The notes beneath the pieces are model-generated. The model was not told the origin of the DNA, did no database searches, and saw nothing but the letters and a program-made list of their open reading frames with translations. A stretch of 29,814 bases of DNA. Origin: a virus. The translations under genes and the position numbers were made by a program. Shown one piece after another: positions 7,307-29,494 of this stretch (its first letter is position 1; every line of letters begins with the position of its first letter). The stretch spans positions 1 through 29,814 of the IMG/VR virus record IMGVR_UViG_3300009149_000184. The stretch is one strand, 5' to 3'.

Positions 7307-8110
7307 ATGGAAATAATTGAAGGTTTGGTATTTGTAGTTAAAAGTCACGAAAGATTGGAAAGGTTTTATGAGAAAACATATTCAAAAATTATATTAAAAT
7401 ACGGTTTTGATTTGAGCAAAGTTTATGTGTTTGTATCAACAGACAAAGACAAGACAGAGTATCAGGAAAAATATAAGGAAATAAATATAGTTAAAGCACC
7501 GAAAGGGGTGGCGGCAGTAGATAATTTTATAACAGATTATTTTGATGAAGGGCAAAAGATTATTTATATGAATGATGATGTGAGCACAATTTTATATTTA
7601 AAAGGAAACGGACTAATTGCGAATGAAGTTCAAAAGTTGGTTGAAATAAACAAGGACAATTTATATATAGTTATAAAAGAGTGTTTTAGAATTATGGAGA
7701 AGAATAACATTACTTATGGAGGGTTTTACCCCGTGGCTAACGATTTTTATATGAAGAATAGTAAGGGAAGATTTACATTTGGGTTGAGTTTGATTATGGA
7801 CCCTTTTTCATTTGTGATAAACAATAAGAAAGTGAGAATTACGATAAGCGATAAGAGTGATTTTGAGAAAAGCATTCAACATTTTACATATCAGGGAGCG
7901 ATTTTAAGGTGTAATTTTATGGCATTGAAGGTTGAATACTACGGAAAGAAAGGAGGCTTCCAAGGCAGGGATGATATTACTGAGTGGGAAACGGCTAACA
8001 AGATGTTGAATAAATACCCTGATTATATCAGCAGCGTTATAGTTAAAAAGGAAGGCAAGACATCACTTAGATTTAAGAAGATGAAACCGAAAAAAAGAAT
8101 TGAATTATGA
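7307..8110 (+). CDS. TET-associated glycosyltransferase (TAGT)-like protein
   Basis: 267 residues with a GT-A-like layout. An N-terminal strand GLVFVVKSHERLERFYEKTY is followed by YGFDLSKVYVFVSTDKDKTE, then KAPKGVAAVDNFITDYF, then the acidic metal/nucleotide-sugar motif IYMNDDVSTI (D90, D91). Further on come FGLSLIMDPFSFVIN and YQGAILRCNFMALKVEYYGK with GGFQGRDD. This order fits the TAGT family described in phages beside TET/JBP oxygenases, which is thought to glycosylate 5-hydroxymethyl-pyrimidines in DNA. I recognise the family from its pattern, not from a search. Its stop overlaps the next start (ATGA). No TET/JBP gene is seen in the window, so the acceptor base is unknown. Confidence 0.65.
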   Translation: MEIIEGLVFVVKSHERLERFYEKTYSKIILKYGFDLSKVYVFVSTDKDKTEYQEKYKEINIVKAPKGVAAVDNFITDYFDEGQKIIYMNDDVSTILYLKGNGLIANEVQKLVEINKDNLYIVIKECFRIMEKNNITYGGFYPVANDFYMKNSKGRFTFGLSLIMDPFSFVINNKKVRITISDKSDFEKSIQHFTYQGAILRCNFMALKVEYYGKKGGFQGRDDITEWETANKMLNKYPDYISSVIVKKEGKTSLRFKKMKPKKRIEL

Positions 8111-8826
8111 TAAAGATAGATACATTTAGGGAAAATGAAGAAAACCCGAGGCAGATTACAGAAGAACATTTGAAAAAATTGATGAAAAGCATTAAACAAT
8201 TTGAGAAGATGATGACTTATAGACCAATTGTTATTGATGAGAACAACATTATATTGGGAGGCAATCAAAGATTTAAAGCGTTGGTTGAATTGGGCTATAA
8301 GGAAATACCTAACGATTGGGTAGTAAAGAAAACAGATTTTACAGACAAAGAAAAGCAGGAGTTTATTGTGAAAGACAATTTGAACTACGGCTATTGGGAC
8401 TGGAGCAAAATTGAAGTTGATTTTGAGAGCACAGATTTAGTAGATTGGGGTTTAGATTTACCATTTGTTTTTGAAAAGAAGGTTGAGTTTGATGAGCCGA
8501 CATCACAGAATACATTTGAGTTCATTATAGATGAAAATAACGATGAACCTGAGATTATTCACACAGAGGAAGAGGTGGATGGAATAGATGAAGATTATGA
8601 AGGAATAGATGAAGAAGCAGAATACTTTTTAGACTTAGAAAACAATGAAGCATTACAGACTGAAAGCGCACTTATAAGCGGGCAAAGTTTTACTAATAAA
8701 TTTGTTACGATTACAATACCAATAGCAGACAAGGAAAGGATGGCACAGACATTGGGACTTATGCAGATGAAAAGAATACTTACATTAAACGAAATAAAAA
8801 ACATAGTAATAGATGAAAATAAATAG
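8107..8826 (+). CDS. ParB/sulfiredoxin-fold protein with acidic linker (ParB-like 1)
   Basis: 239 residues. The N-terminal half is a ParB-N-like domain: NPRQITEEHLKKLMKSIKQF, RPIVID, GGNQRFKALVELGY (GGNQR at 51-55), then KDNLNYGYWDW. A very acidic linker (about residues 140-185) leads to a small C-terminal module (KFVTITIPIADKERMAQTLG). Classical ParB binds CTP; in phage modification islands ParB-fold proteins are thought to act as nucleotide-using or nuclease partners. It overlaps the glycosyltransferase gene by four bases and the second ParB gene by 14, so the three are made together. A role in chromosome partition is unlikely, since no ParA is present. Confidence 0.7.
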   Translation: MIKIDTFRENEENPRQITEEHLKKLMKSIKQFEKMMTYRPIVIDENNIILGGNQRFKALVELGYKEIPNDWVVKKTDFTDKEKQEFIVKDNLNYGYWDWSKIEVDFESTDLVDWGLDLPFVFEKKVEFDEPTSQNTFEFIIDENNDEPEIIHTEEEVDGIDEDYEGIDEEAEYFLDLENNEALQTESALISGQSFTNKFVTITIPIADKERMAQTLGLMQMKRILTLNEIKNIVIDENK

Positions 8827-9334
8827 ATTGAGATTTGGGAAAAAGAACCCGAGGGGAATAACAGAAGCAAAGTTGAATAAATTGAAAGGTTCCATTGAGC
8901 AATTTGGAAAGATGATGGAATTGAGACCAATTATTTATGATGAAAATATGGAGGTTATATCAGGTAATCAAAGATTGAGAGCGATGTTAGATATGGGATA
9001 TGAGGAAATACCTGATAATTGGTTGAGGGAAGCAAAAGGTTTAACAGAAAAGGAAAAGGAACAATTTTTAATCAAAGATAATTTAACTTTTGGTGATTGG
9101 AACTGGTTGAGATTAAAAGAATGGGGTTTTGAAAACCTTGATGTTTGGGGTTTAGATACACCATATTCGGGAGGTTTATTTAACAAGACAATAGCACAGA
9201 AAGAAAACGCAGATTTGGACTATAAGTTTATGATTATATACAACAACCCTAATGAGTTGAGAGCGATTAGAGAGTTGTTAGGCATTACAGCAGACGGATC
9301 ACACTATACAAAAGAAATGATAACTAAATGGTAG
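8813..9334 (+). CDS. ParB/sulfiredoxin-fold protein (ParB-like 2)
   Basis: 173 residues, a clear paralogue of its upstream neighbour: NPRGITEAKLNKLKGSIEQF, RPIIYDENMEVISGNQRLRA (SGNQR at 50-54), then IKDNLTFGDWNW and DVWGLDTP. It lacks the acidic linker of the first copy but keeps a similar C-terminal module (KFMIIYNNPNELRAIRELLG). The change of GGNQR to SGNQR at the nucleotide-contact loop could mean divided roles, or a heterodimer. It overlaps the radical-SAM gene by seven bases. The exact chemistry is unknown. Confidence 0.7.
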   Translation: MKINRLRFGKKNPRGITEAKLNKLKGSIEQFGKMMELRPIIYDENMEVISGNQRLRAMLDMGYEEIPDNWLREAKGLTEKEKEQFLIKDNLTFGDWNWLRLKEWGFENLDVWGLDTPYSGGLFNKTIAQKENADLDYKFMIIYNNPNELRAIRELLGITADGSHYTKEMITKW

Positions 9335-10581
9335 AAAAGAAAGAACCAACAAAATACTACGGAAGTCCAAGATGGAGTTATGAACTTTATGATTGTAGTA
9401 TGCCGATGACATTTGATACATATTCAAATTGCGGTTTTGGATGTTTATATTGCTTTTCACAATTTCAAAAAGGAATAGGGCAAAGCAAAGACAATTACCT
9501 AAACAAAAAGATTACCGCAGTAAATGTTGAGAAGGTTAAAAAGTTGTTTAGAGGGGAGATAAAGAACTCACAATTTAACGAGTATATAGAACAGAGGAAG
9601 ACATTACAATGGGGCGGGCTCACAGATCCTTTCTGCAACATAGAAAGAAGCAGGGGTGTAACCTTAGAACTTTTAGAGTTTTTCCACGAAATAAAATACC
9701 CGATTTGTTTTTCAACAAAAGGAGTTTTTTGGACAGAAGATGAAAGATATATGAAATACTTTAGAGATAATGATTTTTGGAATGTGAAGTTCAGCATTAT
9801 TACAATGGACGAAGAAAAGGCGAAGTGGATAGAAAAAGGAGTTCCAACACCAACAGAAAGATTAGCAGCGATGAAAAGACTGACAGACAACAATTTAATA
9901 GGAGGCGTAACCCTTAGATTGAGACCATTTATTATAGGTATATCAACACCATCTTACAAAGAGGTTATTAGAAAAGCAGCAGAAGCAGGGGCAACGGCAA
10001 TAAGCACAGAGTTCTTTTGTTTAGATGTAAGGAGTTTAATTATGAAAGAAAATATGAAAGTTTTTGATAGTTTGACGGATATGAATACACTGAAGTTTTA
10101 TAAACAATATAGCGATGGAAATGGTTATTTAAGATTGAGCAGGAAGGTTAAAGAAATATATATTAAGGATATGAAGAAGACCTGCGATGAGGTTGGAATG
10201 AGATTTTATGTGAGTGATGCACACTTCAAAGAAGAGTGTGCGAACGGATCTTGTTGCGGTTTAAGCGAAGATTGGAACTACTCACACGGACAATTTACAG
10301 AAGCATTATTGATAGCAAAGAAAAATGGGTTTGTGAGTTGGGGTGATATATCACACGATATGAAGCACTTAGAAAATGTGCCTTATGTGGGAGCAGAGGG
10401 TTTTAACTCAGGTTCAAATCAAAACAGGGCGAAATACTACGGACTGACAATGAAAGATTATATACACCACTTGTGGAATGACACAAAGCAACAGAAGGGG
10501 ATATATCAAATGTATGAGAAGATTTTAACACCGATTGAGAAAGATGAGAACGGTGATTTAATTTATAAATATAATGGATAA
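9328..10581 (+). CDS. Radical-SAM enzyme of the modification cassette
   Basis: 417 residues. The CxxxCxxC cluster C35-G-F-G-C39-L-Y-C42 binds the [4Fe-4S] cluster that cleaves S-adenosylmethionine. A TIM-barrel-like body follows (LQWGGLTDPFCNIE, YPICFSTKG, NVKFSIITMDEEKAKW, GVTLRLRPFIIG). The overall pattern resembles the spore-photoproduct-lyase-like branch, whose known member repairs thymine dimers in DNA. C-terminal cysteines (C286, C304, C309, C310) may hold a second cluster. Tight overlaps with the ParB-like gene upstream and small terminase downstream suggest a substrate in the DNA about to be packaged. Substrate and reaction are inference; a tRNA- or protein-modifying role is possible. 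Confidence 0.75.
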   Translation: MVEKKEPTKYYGSPRWSYELYDCSMPMTFDTYSNCGFGCLYCFSQFQKGIGQSKDNYLNKKITAVNVEKVKKLFRGEIKNSQFNEYIEQRKTLQWGGLTDPFCNIERSRGVTLELLEFFHEIKYPICFSTKGVFWTEDERYMKYFRDNDFWNVKFSIITMDEEKAKWIEKGVPTPTERLAAMKRLTDNNLIGGVTLRLRPFIIGISTPSYKEVIRKAAEAGATAISTEFFCLDVRSLIMKENMKVFDSLTDMNTLKFYKQYSDGNGYLRLSRKVKEIYIKDMKKTCDEVGMRFYVSDAHFKEECANGSCCGLSEDWNYSHGQFTEALLIAKKNGFVSWGDISHDMKHLENVPYVGAEGFNSGSNQNRAKYYGLTMKDYIHHLWNDTKQQKGIYQMYEKILTPIEKDENGDLIYKYNG

Positions 10582-10996
10582 AAAAATGGCAAGAAAGAAG
10601 AAATACACAATAAAGGAAGCGAAAGAAATGAAGGAAAAGGTGTTGAAGATGTTGAAGGAAAACCTTGGAATACTTACACCTGTTTTACAGACATACGGAA
10701 TACCAACAGGAGTTTATTATAGATGGTTGGATGAGGATGATGATTTTAGGAAAAATGTTAGTGATATAAAAGAAATATCATTAGATTTTGTTGAGAGCAA
10801 GTTATTGAAATTGATTAGGGATGAAGATAAAACTGCGATTATATTTTATTTGAAATGTAAGGGCAAAGAAAGAGGATATGTAGAGGTTCAAAGAATTGAA
10901 CAGGAAACAAGTTTTAAAGAACCATTGAGAATAAATGTAGTTCCTCCAGATGAGCAATATAAAATAGAAGGACCTGATATAAAACAAATACCATAA
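10574..10996 (+). CDS. Terminase small subunit (HTH, phBC6A51-like)
   Basis: 140 residues. A helix-turn-helix (LGILTPVLQTYGIPTGVYYR at about residues 31-50, then WLDEDDDFRKNV) is followed by FVESKLLKLIRDEDKTAIIF and LKCKGKERGYVE, a pattern common to small terminase subunits of Gram-positive and Bacteroidota phages. The protein recognises the packaging site on concatemeric DNA and hands it to the large subunit. The start overlaps the radical-SAM gene by eight bases; an in-frame ATG at 10586 is an alternative. The large subunit starts two bases after the stop. Confidence 0.75.
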   Translation: MDKKMARKKKYTIKEAKEMKEKVLKMLKENLGILTPVLQTYGIPTGVYYRWLDEDDDFRKNVSDIKEISLDFVESKLLKLIRDEDKTAIIFYLKCKGKERGYVEVQRIEQETSFKEPLRINVVPPDEQYKIEGPDIKQIP

Positions 10997-10998
10997 AC

Positions 10999-12297
10999 TT
11001 GGACATAACTTTTAGACCATTACCAATACAATACAAGGTGTGGAACTACCTTTTTGATAAGGACAATACACAGATTTTATTTGGGGGCGCAGCCCGTGTA
11101 AGCAAATCATACTTATTGTGCGCTTGGGCAACCATATATTGCTTGGCTTTTCCGCAGATACACGGTGCGATATGTCGTTCAAGATTGACGAGTTTAAAGA
11201 AAACAACATTACAGACTTTATTTGAGTTTTTCAGGCATCAGGGTTTGAAAGAAGATAAACATTTTACATTTAACAGAGGCGATATGGTTATTACTTTTCA
11301 AAATGGTTCAAAGATTTTTTTTATTGAATTATATAACAACCCTTCTGACCCTGATTTTGATAGAATTATGAGTTTAAGTTTAACATTCGCAGGGGTTGAT
11401 GAAGTAAGTGAGATTAGTGAGAACGCAATAAATAAACTCCAGACAAGATTATCACATATGTTGATTGAATATAATTTGAAACCTAAGTTATTGTTAGTGA
11501 GCAACCCGAATAGGGGTTGGTTATACAACAAATACTACAAGCCGTTCAAATCAAATGAATTACCTAAGTATAGAAAAGTTATATTAGGACTTCCAGACGA
11601 CAATAGTTATGTGAGCAGGGACTATATTGACAACTTAGAACAATTAGACCAAGGCACCGTTCAAAGATTGAGATGGGGCAATTGGGAATACGCTGATGAA
11701 GATTTTAATATCATTAGTTATGACCAGATTTTACAGATGTTTTACAACGACCCGATAGCGGGTGAAAAATATATAAGTTGTGATGTTGCGAACATTGGAA
11801 ATGATAAAACGGTTATAGGAGTTTGGAACGGGTTGGAGTGTTTTAATATATACACTTATGATAAGGCTGATACGCCGATGGTTGTGAATTATATAAAGGA
11901 AAAGATGAAAACTTTTAATGTTAAAATAAAGAATGTTATAATTGACGCAGACGGTTTAGGAATAGGTGTGGCAGATTACTTGAAAGGTTGTGTTCCATTT
12001 AAGGGCGGCAGTTCAGCATTGAATAATGAGAATTATAGGAACCTTAGAAGTCAGTGTTATATGAAATTAGCAGATTTATCTGATCAGATAAAATTGGTTG
12101 ATAAACATAGGGACGAAATAATACAAGATTTACAGGCACACAGATTGAACGACCCTGATAGCGAAGGCAAGACAAGCATTATTTCAAAAGATAAAATTAA
12201 ACAACACATAGGCAGAAGCCCTGATTATAGTGATATGTTGATGATGAGGATGTATTACGAAATGAAAAGGGTGAGACATAAAACAATTATATATTGA
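10999..12297 (+). CDS. Terminase large subunit (ATPase/nuclease)
   Basis: 432 residues. Walker A variant GGAARVSKS (29-37), Walker B TFAGVDEVSE (D134, E135), then a linker and an RNase H-like nuclease with YISCDVANIG (D262), VIIDADGLG (D316, D318) and PDYSDM (D412). This is the motor that cuts and pumps DNA into the prohead. The length is normal for the family. The start is TTG at 10999, two bases after the small-subunit stop; no ATG occurs in frame until well inside the ATPase domain, and the sequence right after TTG already matches a terminase N-terminus (FRPLPIQYKVWNYLF). The stop TGA overlaps the next ATG. Confidence 0.92.
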   Translation: MDITFRPLPIQYKVWNYLFDKDNTQILFGGAARVSKSYLLCAWATIYCLAFPQIHGAICRSRLTSLKKTTLQTLFEFFRHQGLKEDKHFTFNRGDMVITFQNGSKIFFIELYNNPSDPDFDRIMSLSLTFAGVDEVSEISENAINKLQTRLSHMLIEYNLKPKLLLVSNPNRGWLYNKYYKPFKSNELPKYRKVILGLPDDNSYVSRDYIDNLEQLDQGTVQRLRWGNWEYADEDFNIISYDQILQMFYNDPIAGEKYISCDVANIGNDKTVIGVWNGLECFNIYTYDKADTPMVVNYIKEKMKTFNVKIKNVIIDADGLGIGVADYLKGCVPFKGGSSALNNENYRNLRSQCYMKLADLSDQIKLVDKHRDEIIQDLQAHRLNDPDSEGKTSIISKDKIKQHIGRSPDYSDMLMMRMYYEMKRVRHKTIIY

Positions 12298-27493: not shown

Positions 27494-29494
27494 ATGGCTG
27501 ATAGTAGAATAAGAAACCTTACATATGAAAGCGCACCAACAGGCACAACACAAATAGTCGTTGATGCCGCAAGTTATAGTGATGCTAAAAGAACAACTTT
27601 AGGTGATGTAAAAGATTATATATTAGATGGTATAGACGCAGGTGATACTTATACTACTGGAGTTAGTTTTGATATAAACACAGGTATATTACAATTCACA
27701 AGAAATGATATTGGTGGAGTATATTGGACTGATTTAGATGGTAGATATAATTTAAGTGGGACAACATTTCCATTATCTTTAAGTGGTTTAACTGATGTTG
27801 ATTTTACTACTTTAACAACAGGTGAAGTTTTAACTTTTAATGGTTCAATTTGGGTAAATAGTGGTTCAACTGGTGGTGGAACAGGAACTTCTGGAACATC
27901 AGGTGTTGATGGAACTTCTGGAACATCAGGTGTTGATGGAACTTCTGGAACATCAGGTGTTGATGGAACTTCAGGTAGTTCAGGTTCATCAGGAACATCA
28001 GGTGTTGATGGAACTTCAGGTAGTTCAGGTTCATCAGGAACTTCAGGTGTTGATGGAACAATAGGTAGTTCAGGTTCATCAGGAACATCAGGTGTTGATG
28101 GAACTTCAGGTAGTTCAGGTTCATCAGGTAGTTCAGGTTCAAGTGGAACATCAGGTAGTTCAGGCACTTCAGGTTTAGATGGTTCGCTCACAGGCGTTAC
28201 AACCGATAGTAACTTCTGGTATGATCCTACTACTGATATATTATATACTCCTGAGATAAACTTGTTAGGAACAACAGGTTTCACTACACACGCTGCCTCG
28301 TATTGGGGTTTATATATTGATAGAGCAACAGGTTTAGTATATTCCAATTCAGGATCAACTGGGGATAGTGGAAGTTCAGGTTCATCAGGAACCTCAGGTA
28401 GTTCAGGTATATCAGGAACAGATGGAACATCAGGTATAGATGGAACTTCAGGTTCAAGTGGAATAAGTGGAACAGATGGAACTTCAGGTAGTTCAGGTAT
28501 TTCAGGAACAGATGGAACCTCAGGTAGTTCAGGTAGTTCAGGTATATCAGGAACGGATGGAACATCAGGTTCATCAGGTAGTTCAGGTTCATCAGGTAGT
28601 TCAGGAACATCAGGAATAGATGGTAGTATTAGTGGATTAACCTTTGATACTGACCTTTTTTATGTTGATGATATATTATATACACCACAAATAGTTATGA
28701 CTGGAACCACAGATTTTAGTATTCATCCTTCTAACTACTGGGGACTTTTTATAGATAGTGATACAGGTTTAGTATATTCCAATAGTGGATCAACAGGAGC
28801 ATCAGGAACATCAGGTAGTTCAGGAACATCAGGTTCATCAGGTTCATCAGGTTCAAGTGGTAGTTCAGGTATATCAGGTAGTTCAGGAAGTTCAGGCACA
28901 TCAGTAAGTTCAGGAATAAATGGAACATCAGGTAGTTCAGGCACATCAGGAAGTTCAGGAATAAATGGAACATCAGGAAGTTCAGGCACATCAGGAAGTA
29001 TAACTGGTTTAACCTACGATGTTGATTACTACTATGATACGAGTGTAGATAGATTATATACACCAAGTTTAACTCTACCAGGCGAAACTACAAATACAGC
29101 ACACGGAATAAGTTATGGATCAGTTTTTATAGATAAAACTAATGGAAACTTATATACTAATGAAGTCGCAGGTGGAGGTTCGGTAGGAACATCATTACCA
29201 ATTAAAGCAGTAACAGGTGATTATACAATAGTAACAAAAACAGATTATACGGTTTTAAGTTATTCAACAGGTCAGACCATCAACATTACGGTTCCATTAG
29301 CAGAAGATGAAAAGGGTGAAGTTTTTGTAGTGAAAAATCTAACAGCATCAGGAACAACTAATTTAGTTAGAACAAGCCCTGATGAAATAGATGATGTGAC
29401 AACAACTGCTATACCACCGTTCCATAGTTATATGTTCCAATCGGATGGAGTAACAACTTGGTATATAATAGCCGCATATCAAAGTAAGATTTAA
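27494..29494 (+). CDS. Collagen-like (Gly-X-Y) tail fibre with three repeated modules
   Basis: 666 residues. After an N-terminal domain (about 1-130), three tracts of Gly-X-Y triplets made of Ser/Thr/Val-Asp ([13 protein letters not shown]) alternate with three homologous modules. The modules contain [17 protein letters not shown]...[30 protein letters not shown]...[16 protein letters not shown], and [16 protein letters not shown]...[17 protein letters not shown] beta-rich C-terminal domain follows. Gly at every third position, without proline, suggests a collagen-like or polyglycine-type triple-helical shaft carrying repeated knobs. I infer a host-binding fibre. The long open minus-strand frames here are by-products of the repeats. 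Confidence 0.8.
27884..28180 (+). repeat. Tandem coding repeats of the fibre, tract 1 (27- and 45-bp units)
   Basis: Three 27-bp units (27884, 27911, 27938; GTSGTSGVD) and then 45-bp units at 27965, 28010 and 28055 ([15 protein letters not shown]), followed by shorter units. All unit lengths are multiples of nine, so gain or loss of a unit keeps both frame and triplet phase. Confidence 0.85.
28366..28620 (+). repeat. Tandem coding repeats of the fibre, tract 2
   Basis: Repeats of GGAACTTCAGGTAGTTCA and related units encode GTSGSS and [11 protein letters not shown]. They separate globular modules 1 and 2. Confidence 0.8.
28796..29001 (+). repeat. Tandem coding repeats of the fibre, tract 3
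   Basis: Units of GGAACATCAGGTAGTTCA type encode GTSGSS, with a repeated [15 protein letters not shown] element at about 28912-28998. They separate modules 2 and 3. Confidence 0.8.

Follow-up and report, generated by a model that had tools for sequence, protein, structure and literature searches.

The window analysed here, that is the whole stretch of 29,814 nt constituting IMG/VR record IMGVR_UViG_3300009149_000184, is a fragment without end repeats, and it carries a cassette of four genes directly upstream of terminase (Table 1). All four open reading frames lie on the plus strand, and their coordinates confirm the successive overlaps of 4, 14 and 7 bases described in the earlier note. The 3' end of the radical-SAM (rSAM) gene in turn overlaps by 8 bases the small-terminase-like gene, which serves as the landmark of the conserved cassette position. 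As that note had also claimed, genes for an oxygenase, a methylase or a hydroxymethylase are missing: we found no TET/JBP, thymidylate-synthase-fold, ThyX or C5-methylase gene in this 29.8-kb fragment. The window cassette also lacks the 5hmU DNA kinase and the amino-acid:DNA transferase, both of which are present in sister cassettes.

Table 1. Genes of the window cassette and its downstream neighbours.
Feature	Coordinates	Strand	Basis
TAGT-type GT-A glycosyltransferase, 267 aa	7307..8110	+	PF20691, phrog_25200, tblastn, GT-A fold model
ParB-like protein 1, 239 aa	8107..8826	+	PF02195, phrog_940/498
ParB-like protein 2, 173 aa, paralogue of ParB-like protein 1	8813..9334	+	PF02195 (below cut-off), clustering
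Radical-SAM enzyme, 417 aa, PA0069/SplB-like	9328..10581	+	cysteine motif, NF033668, AlphaFold
Small-terminase-like protein, downstream neighbour	10574..10996	+	phrog_309, phrog_1482 terminase small subunit, E ~3e-4
Terminase large subunit, neighbour	10999..12297	+	PF04466, 38.4 bits; phrog_2, E 1.1e-29

The protein encoded by the first gene passes the TAGT model PF20691 only marginally (27.6 bits at a cut-off of 27.5), and it also matches phrog_25200 (E 1.6e-15) and, by tblastn, the TAGT genes of Arthrobacter phages (E 2e-18). Fold prediction, which had been set in advance as the test that could refute its identity as a glycosyltransferase, gave a GT-A fold (pLDDT 80.7) and thus no refutation; among the PDB matches listed for this model all were of the glycosyl- or nucleotidyltransferase type. 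Two aspartates, D90 and D185, are invariant in the TAGT alignment. When the window glycosyltransferase (GT) was used as a query in a scan of viral contigs, no close relative was obtained. The two ParB-like proteins fall in one cluster; the first scores 29.3 bits with PF02195 (cut-off 26.3) and the second, at 24.1 bits, is slightly under this threshold.

The rSAM enzyme bears the CX3CX2C motif (C35/C39/C42), which is invariant across 97 relatives, as are the further cysteines C23, C231, C309 and C310. Its score with PF04055 is below the cut-off (26.4 versus 29.5 bits), its 79.9 bits with the PA0069-family model NF033668 do not reach the curated cut-off of 360, and there was no match to a spore photoproduct lyase (SPL) NCBIfam model. 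Sequence comparison with PDB chains gave no match, and a profile gave only irrelevant phosphoprotein matches, so that comparison of folds was required. The best PDB match of the AlphaFold model (pLDDT 93.4) is the SPL structure 4fhc (E 4.9e-9, TM 0.48/0.57, 16% identity). Membership in the radical-SAM superfamily is met through the motif together with the structural matches. The identities proposed for the cassette genes (TAGT-type, two ParB-like, radical-SAM) are upheld; for the TAGT, tblastn, the fold model and the conserved residues support the marginal Pfam assignment. SPL generates a thymine-centred radical in DNA, and this thymine-in-DNA radical chemistry is what SplB has in common with the role considered below; in contrast to SplB, the window rSAM shares only 16% identity with its structural match, belongs to a modification cassette and matches no SPL family model. 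An SPL-type repair role for the rSAM was considered and rejected.

Relatives of the rSAM were found in at least 134 viral contigs and in 17 loci of bacterial genomes, almost all from anaerobes, the genomes being those of Bacteroides, Prevotella, Phocaeicola, Selenomonas, Clostridia, Victivallales and similar. The family is almost missing from the genomes of cultured phages, where 50,697 records gave a single weak match, but it does occur in loci resembling prophages in culturable Bacteroides and Selenomonas, among them Bacteroides fragilis S82 and Selenomonas ruminantium S137. A Bacteroidales-wide search of 393 genomes found the rSAM in one, the centre genome of the search itself, and TET above the cut-off in none. 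Cassette composition was counted in the 59 rSAM loci for which 3.5 kb or more of upstream sequence was available. In 56 of these a ParB gene is found near the rSAM, so the two form a constant core whose association is far beyond chance, and a chance neighbourhood of the cassette genes was rejected on this ground. We also rejected the possibility that the cassette is a partition system; ParB belongs here to a modification operon, as it also does in the contexts of TET and CmoX (PMC12783734), and its role in DNA targeting or loading is inferred.

The third component alternates. It is either a TAGT (GT in 12/59 loci) or a 5hmU-DNA-kinase-like protein with or without an amino-acid:DNA transferase (transferase and/or kinase in 43/59), and both types never occur together (0/59); some ParB-rSAM loci have no recognised tailoring gene. 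On the rSAM tree of 91 rows, well-supported branches show no fewer than 10-12 switches of the tailoring label, and parsimony requires 16-22 changes, close to the mean of shuffled labels. Pairs of rSAMs that are 95.9%, 93.2% and 93.0% identical nevertheless have GT partners on one side and kinase/transferase partners on the other. Such swapping beside near-identical enzymes indicates that the product of the rSAM suits both types of tailoring. In their known chemistry, both types require a base that carries a hydroxyl.

To our knowledge, pyrimidine hypermodification in phages is known to begin with either TET/JBP or a hydroxymethylase. Since the window itself is a fragment, the absence of TET/JBP from the phage was examined through its relatives. 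TET/JBP, the partner of TAGT, was missing from the window and from 46 of 47 rSAM-bearing viral records, while the same search detected the Arthrobacter record used as a positive control. In these rSAM-bearing records, a thymidylate-synthase-fold hydroxymethylase (PF00303) was found in 0/47, ThyX in 1/44 and a C5-methylase in 6/47. Most of them are metagenomic contigs labelled 'linear', from which part of the genome may be missing; many of the records nonetheless span 45-60 kb, still without TET or hydroxymethylase genes. The single exception is phage L079, with a full ParB-TET-PLP enzyme-transferase-kinase operon plus ParB-rSAM, so that TET and rSAM are not strictly exclusive.

Operons of equivalent layout are found in TET phages, where the oxygenase occupies the place of the rSAM. 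The gene order is ParB-x-TET-TAGT-deacetylase in Arthrobacter phage Lilmac1015 (genes 65-69), ParB-TET-transferase-5hmU kinase-x-terminase in Gordonia phage Wooper and ParB-TET-x-terminase in Microbacterium phage MementoMori; the operon of Rhodococcus phage Tonitrus, a thymidine hypermodification operon with TET (PMC11955845), is similar to that of Wooper. By hhalign, the profile of the cassette ParB family matches ParB from TET operons at 96.5-99.5%, and in sister cassettes the transferase (99.2%) and the kinase (97.6%) match their respective counterparts; the transferase family matched the Gordonia transferase by this method but not that of Rhodoferax. In the Arthrobacter operon ParB and TAGT are homologous to those of the window and likewise lie in one operon, whereas the window has an rSAM instead of TET/JBP, two ParB genes and no deacetylase. 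The Wooper and Tonitrus operons share ParB, transferase and kinase relatives, as well as the place upstream of terminase, with the sister rSAM cassettes; they differ in having TET in place of the rSAM, and from the window also in that the latter has TAGT and not transferase/kinase. In having a ParB-like gene accompanied by TAGT or by transferase/kinase in a place upstream of terminase, the rSAM cassettes conform to the TET operon; the TET/JBP dioxygenase gene itself is absent from the window cassette. The named TET phages have aerobic hosts, the labels aerobic and anaerobic for the hosts named here being established knowledge, and the host of the window phage is probably anaerobic.

As TET stands in the matching operons where the cassettes hold the rSAM, we propose that the rSAM takes over the function of TET, without need of oxygen, in a two-stage DNA base-hypermodification module of anaerobe phages, a reading to which we assign a probability of roughly 0.6. 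In the first stage, the constant core of ParB-like protein(s) and SplB/PA0069-like rSAM would act on phage DNA; a 5'-deoxyadenosyl radical would activate the methyl group of thymine (5-methylcytosine being less likely), and the product would be a hydroxymethyl or an equivalent hydroxyl-bearing acceptor made without O2, which is the job of TET/JBP dioxygenases in phages of aerobes. In the exchangeable second stage, the window TAGT is predicted to add a sugar to this hydroxyl, and in sister phages the 5hmU-DNA-kinase-like protein and the amino-acid:DNA transferase may use the same group. Gene content, conservation, swapping of the second stage, near-absence of TET and of thymidylate-synthase-fold hydroxymethylase, the equivalent TET/rSAM operon context and the SPL-like fold are direct observations. 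The DNA substrate, the thymine target and the hydroxylation reaction are inferred, with no biochemistry. Whether the rSAM is an 'anaerobic TET' in the strict sense, the first enzyme class that hydroxylates the thymine methyl in DNA without O2, we consider evenly balanced.

The earlier note had left two possibilities, replacement of the oxygenase by the rSAM or an acceptor made elsewhere in the genome, and the figures for TET/JBP (1/47) and hydroxymethylase (0/47), together with the matching TET operons, favour the former. Under the latter, the acceptor base would be supplied by the host, by a hydroxymethylase of divergent sequence or by a TET that escaped detection, with the rSAM as an accessory in repair or de-modification. 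The window and most relatives are indeed fragments without end repeats, and the rSAM model resembles SPL, a repair enzyme; still, such genes are lacking in many records of 45-60 kb, of all cassette members the rSAM is the best conserved, its gene lies among others that overlap, and repair would need no swapping of GT and transferase partners, so we find this explanation very hard to sustain. That the cassette modifies no DNA at all, acting for example on protein or cell surface, can practically be dismissed: proteins and glycans are also substrates of GT-A-fold enzymes and of rSAMs, but the sister-cassette partners are relatives of 5hmU-DNA kinase and amino-acid:DNA transferase, and TAGT and ParB relatives adjoin TET/JBP.

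The main rival, which we regard as doubtful, is that the rSAM is a tailoring isomerase like gp53 of Pseudomonas phage M6, rearranging an adduct on 5hmU supplied by an unrecognised gene or the host. In M6, whose thymidine hypermodification pathway includes a dUMP hydroxymethylase, the genes for a thymidylate-synthase homologue, the 5hmU kinase, a PLP enzyme and a transferase lie in one region with that for an rSAM from the broad PA0069/SplB group, an arrangement in which the rSAM adjoins kinase and transferase genes as in sister cassettes; L079 likewise has TET, a PLP-enzyme-like gene, transferase, kinase and rSAM. The M6 rSAM reportedly works after 5hmU formation (Lee et al.), which counts against the TET-substitute reading. 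However, M6 has the thymidylate-synthase-fold gene gp58, whereas no such 5hmU source occurs in the rSAM family records and no hydroxymethyl source at all was seen in 46/47; the similarity of the family to gp53 is modest (hhalign probability 82%, 21% identity); near-identical rSAMs serve both GT and transferase cassettes; and in the tree rows with GT only (22) or with neither tailoring class (8) an amino-acid adduct is not expected. It is also conceivable, if unlikely, that the rSAM acts on DNA without hydroxylating it and installs another hydroxyl- or amine-bearing group, e.g., a SAM-derived C-C or C-S substituent, for tailoring. The diversity of rSAM chemistry, the extra invariant C23, C231, C309 and C310, which could bind a second cluster, and the commonness of SAM synthetase genes in the cassette (21/59) are compatible with this; yet the tailoring enzymes are homologous to those behind TET or hydroxymethylase, which makes that same hydroxymethyl group the simplest choice of acceptor.

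Replacement of TET by the rSAM has further points against it, namely the rarity of hydroxylation among rSAM reactions, the lack of biochemistry, L079 with both enzymes, the possible incompleteness of most contigs and the ParB-rSAM loci without a recognised tailoring gene. TET needs O2, which leaves the question of how phages of strict anaerobes (gut, rumen) modify their DNA, and the rSAM is a specific candidate enzyme; our data suggest that a DNA base may receive its first chemical handle without oxygen, by a route not described before. If true, phages would reach hypermodified DNA by two parallel routes, one that depends on oxygen and one that does not, sharing the modular downstream enzymes of TET phages, a division of labour resembling that of aerobic and anaerobic ribonucleotide reductases. 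Oxygen-independent DNA-base oxidation would be added to enzymology, along with a tool for placing 5hmU in DNA. BciD of bacteriochlorophyll e synthesis, an rSAM that hydroxylates a methyl group twice (PMC7242693), sets a precedent for such a reaction without oxygen; its substrate differs and no homology is claimed. The SAM synthetase encoded by the phage in 21 of the 59 loci fits a stoichiometric use of SAM.

The four overlapping reading frames that the earlier note had described are all present in the window, with overlaps of 4, 14 and 7 bases. By Pfam, the product of the gene at 7307 is a TAGT-type glycosyltransferase (marginally, 27.6 bits against a cut-off of 27.5), the next two are ParB_N proteins, at 29.3 and 24.1 bits against a cut-off of 26.3, and the fourth is a radical-SAM (rSAM) enzyme (26.4 bits, under the 29.5 cut-off), whose nearest NCBIfam models, the PA0069/Rv2578c rSAM proteins, score far under their cut-offs. 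A small-terminase-like gene and then TerL lie downstream. The window is a complete IMG/VR record (29,814 bases), probably a fragment of a larger genome. The marginal TAGT score is backed by tblastn matches to annotated phage glycosyltransferases (in Arthrobacter phages, E down to 2e-18, and in Mycobacterium, Caulobacter and Synechococcus phages) and by the invariance of R16, D90 and D185 in the alignment. Further support comes from the AlphaFold model (pLDDT 80.7), which is matched in the PDB by GT-A glycosyltransferases. Thus, the TAGT-like identity, which assignment to a non-glycosyltransferase family would have refuted, withstood the fold check.

Close relatives of the rSAM enzyme are encoded on at least 134 viral contigs and at 17 bacterial genomic loci, and 59 loci having at least 3.5 kb upstream of rSAM were surveyed. 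A ParB-like gene lies near rSAM in 56 of them. A TAGT-type glycosyltransferase stands between or beside ParB and rSAM in 12 loci, and a P-loop kinase and/or amino-acid:DNA-transferase relative in 43, plus one transferase-only case; the two tailoring classes never occur together within the 59, and both are present in one shorter locus outside this set (L069). GNAT acetyltransferases accompany 25 of the 59 loci and a phage-encoded SAM synthetase about 21, beside the cassette (none was found in the window), and terminase genes usually follow. In the transferase family 18 of 22 members match Pfam ADDT, and hhalign relates this family to the aGPT-PPlase2 protein of Gordonia phage Wooper (probability 99.2%) and the kinase family to the Wooper 5-hmU DNA kinase (97.6%). 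By tblastn the kinases also match a Rhodoferax phage protein that has a thymidylate-synthase homologue on one side and, on the other, a transferase scoring 164 bits with ADDT. On context, it is close to certain that this is a DNA-hypermodification cassette. Glycosyltransferase cassettes can include HAD/kinase-like and cytidylyltransferase genes, which would fit, by inference, a custom sugar donor.

Both tailoring chemistries need a base hydroxyl, either for glycosyl transfer or for phosphorylation and then amino-acid displacement. Among 47 rSAM-bearing viral records (window included, some near-duplicates, many of 35-60 kb), TET/JBP was detected in one, a C5-methylase in six and a thymidylate-synthase fold in none, while ThyX occurred in 1 of 44; the TET search recovered its positive control, an Arthrobacter record. 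A methylase is unnecessary if thymine is the target.

Matching operons exist around TET. In Arthrobacter phage Lilmac1015, ParB is separated by one small gene from TET/JBP (Pfam 25.2 bits, under cut-off), which is followed by TAGT and a deacetylase; Wooper has ParB, TET, transferase, 5hmU kinase, one gene and terminase; Microbacterium phage MementoMori has ParB, TET, one gene and terminase. Rhodococcus phage Tonitrus shares the gene set of Wooper with small insertions, reported as a putative thymidine hypermodification system (PMC11955845). Comparison by hhalign shows the ParB proteins of TET operons and those of rSAM cassettes to be homologous (96.5-99.5%, against 0.1-0.6% for non-ParB controls). 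Thus, the same partners surround TET in one phage set and rSAM in the other. The order differs, however: TET directly follows ParB, whereas rSAM usually comes last. Together with the near absence of TET/JBP, these operons make provision of the acceptor by rSAM in place of TET, which the earlier note had offered among other possibilities, the best-supported mechanism, at a probability of roughly 0.6. The most probable product is 5hmU from thymine, at about even odds. No description of such a replacement was found in the literature searched, the coverage of which was incomplete, so that priority remains unsettled.

TET requires O2, and the hosts of the named TET phages (Pelagibacter, Nonlabens, Stenotrophomonas, Caulobacter, Methylophilales, Synechococcus, Microbacterium, Arthrobacter, Gordonia, Rhodococcus and Mycobacterium) are all aerobes, whereas the rSAM-bearing genomes (Bacteroides, Mediterranea, Phocaeicola, Prevotella, Candidatus Azobacteroides, Victivallales, Clostridia, Oscillospiraceae and Selenomonas) belong to anaerobes, apart from one Bacteroidetes/Chlorobi MAG of unknown physiology. 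Replacement by rSAM therefore makes biological sense. BciD, an rSAM enzyme hydroxylating a methyl group, is a precedent (PMC7242693; bciD mutant, PMC3613366). Among cultured phages, 50,697 records yielded a single weak rSAM relative.

C35, C39 and C42 are invariant in 97 rSAM sequences, as are C23, C231, C309 and C310, which we infer may be second-cluster ligands or catalytic. The top match of the rSAM model (pLDDT 93.4) is spore photoproduct lyase (4fhc, E 4.9e-9, TM 0.48/0.57, 16% identity), an rSAM enzyme acting on thymines in DNA. On a quick 91-sequence tree, parsimony required 16 (glycosyltransferase) to 22 (kinase/transferase) tailoring changes, close to the count for shuffled labels, with at least 10-12 on well-supported branches. 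Tailoring partners differ even between rSAMs that are 95.9%, 93.2% and 93.0% identical in three pairs, so an enzyme of almost unchanged sequence is used ahead of or alongside both chemistries.

Only one of the 47 records (L079) carries both TET and this rSAM family, with TET in a complete operon of its own type. Both routes may be in use there, by analogy with phages that encode both aerobic and anaerobic ribonucleotide reductases. Alternatively, the rSAM of L079 could act late, as a tailoring isomerase, the role reported for that of phage M6. The M6 region brings together kinase genes, a PLP enzyme, a transferase and a thymidylate-synthase homologue with an rSAM of the PA0069 group, and alignment of this M6 rSAM to the family studied here is only weak (82% probability, 21% identity). 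An isomerase, however, leaves unexplained the glycosyltransferase-only cassettes, those without a recognised tailoring gene and the absent 5hmU source, and is therefore ranked second, as the main rival to rSAM in place of TET.

Coordinates of cassette-associated and other features (L-numbers, loci or records with rSAM relatives, or comparison phages)
Location	Feature	Remark
L009:4903-5760; also L076, L108, L109, L110, L126	Second PA0069-like rSAM upstream of cassette, often shorter	285 aa in L009
L072:11775-12965	Large rSAM-like protein of 396 aa that matches PF04055 weakly	Adjoins ParB-rSAM-ParB arrangement
L061:4312-5235	Second rSAM, SPASM-domain	Between glycosyltransferase and main rSAM
L122, L123	Extra 314-aa gene between glycosyltransferase and rSAM	No identification
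L031:1229-2724; similar L027, L048, L052, L116, L125	Glycosyltransferase cassette with HAD/kinase-like, often cytidylyltransferase-like protein	Possibly makes nucleotide-activated custom sugar donor
L075:3649-4674	SAM synthetase	
L079:11223-15583 (minus)	ParB, TET, PLP-enzyme-like gene, transferase, kinase	
L079:9354-11257 (plus)	ParB-rSAM pair	Convergent with TET operon
L106:21686-22249 (M6 gp54); Rhodoferax phage P26218 gp15 (NC_029061)	Labelled terminase small subunit; match 5-hmdU DNA kinase family	Likely misannotation
Window 7280-10600	Gene starts without Shine-Dalgarno motifs, A/T-rich sequence ahead	Would fit a Bacteroidota host
Window 27494-29494	Collagen triple-helix repeat protein (PF01391)	Probably tail or fibre component
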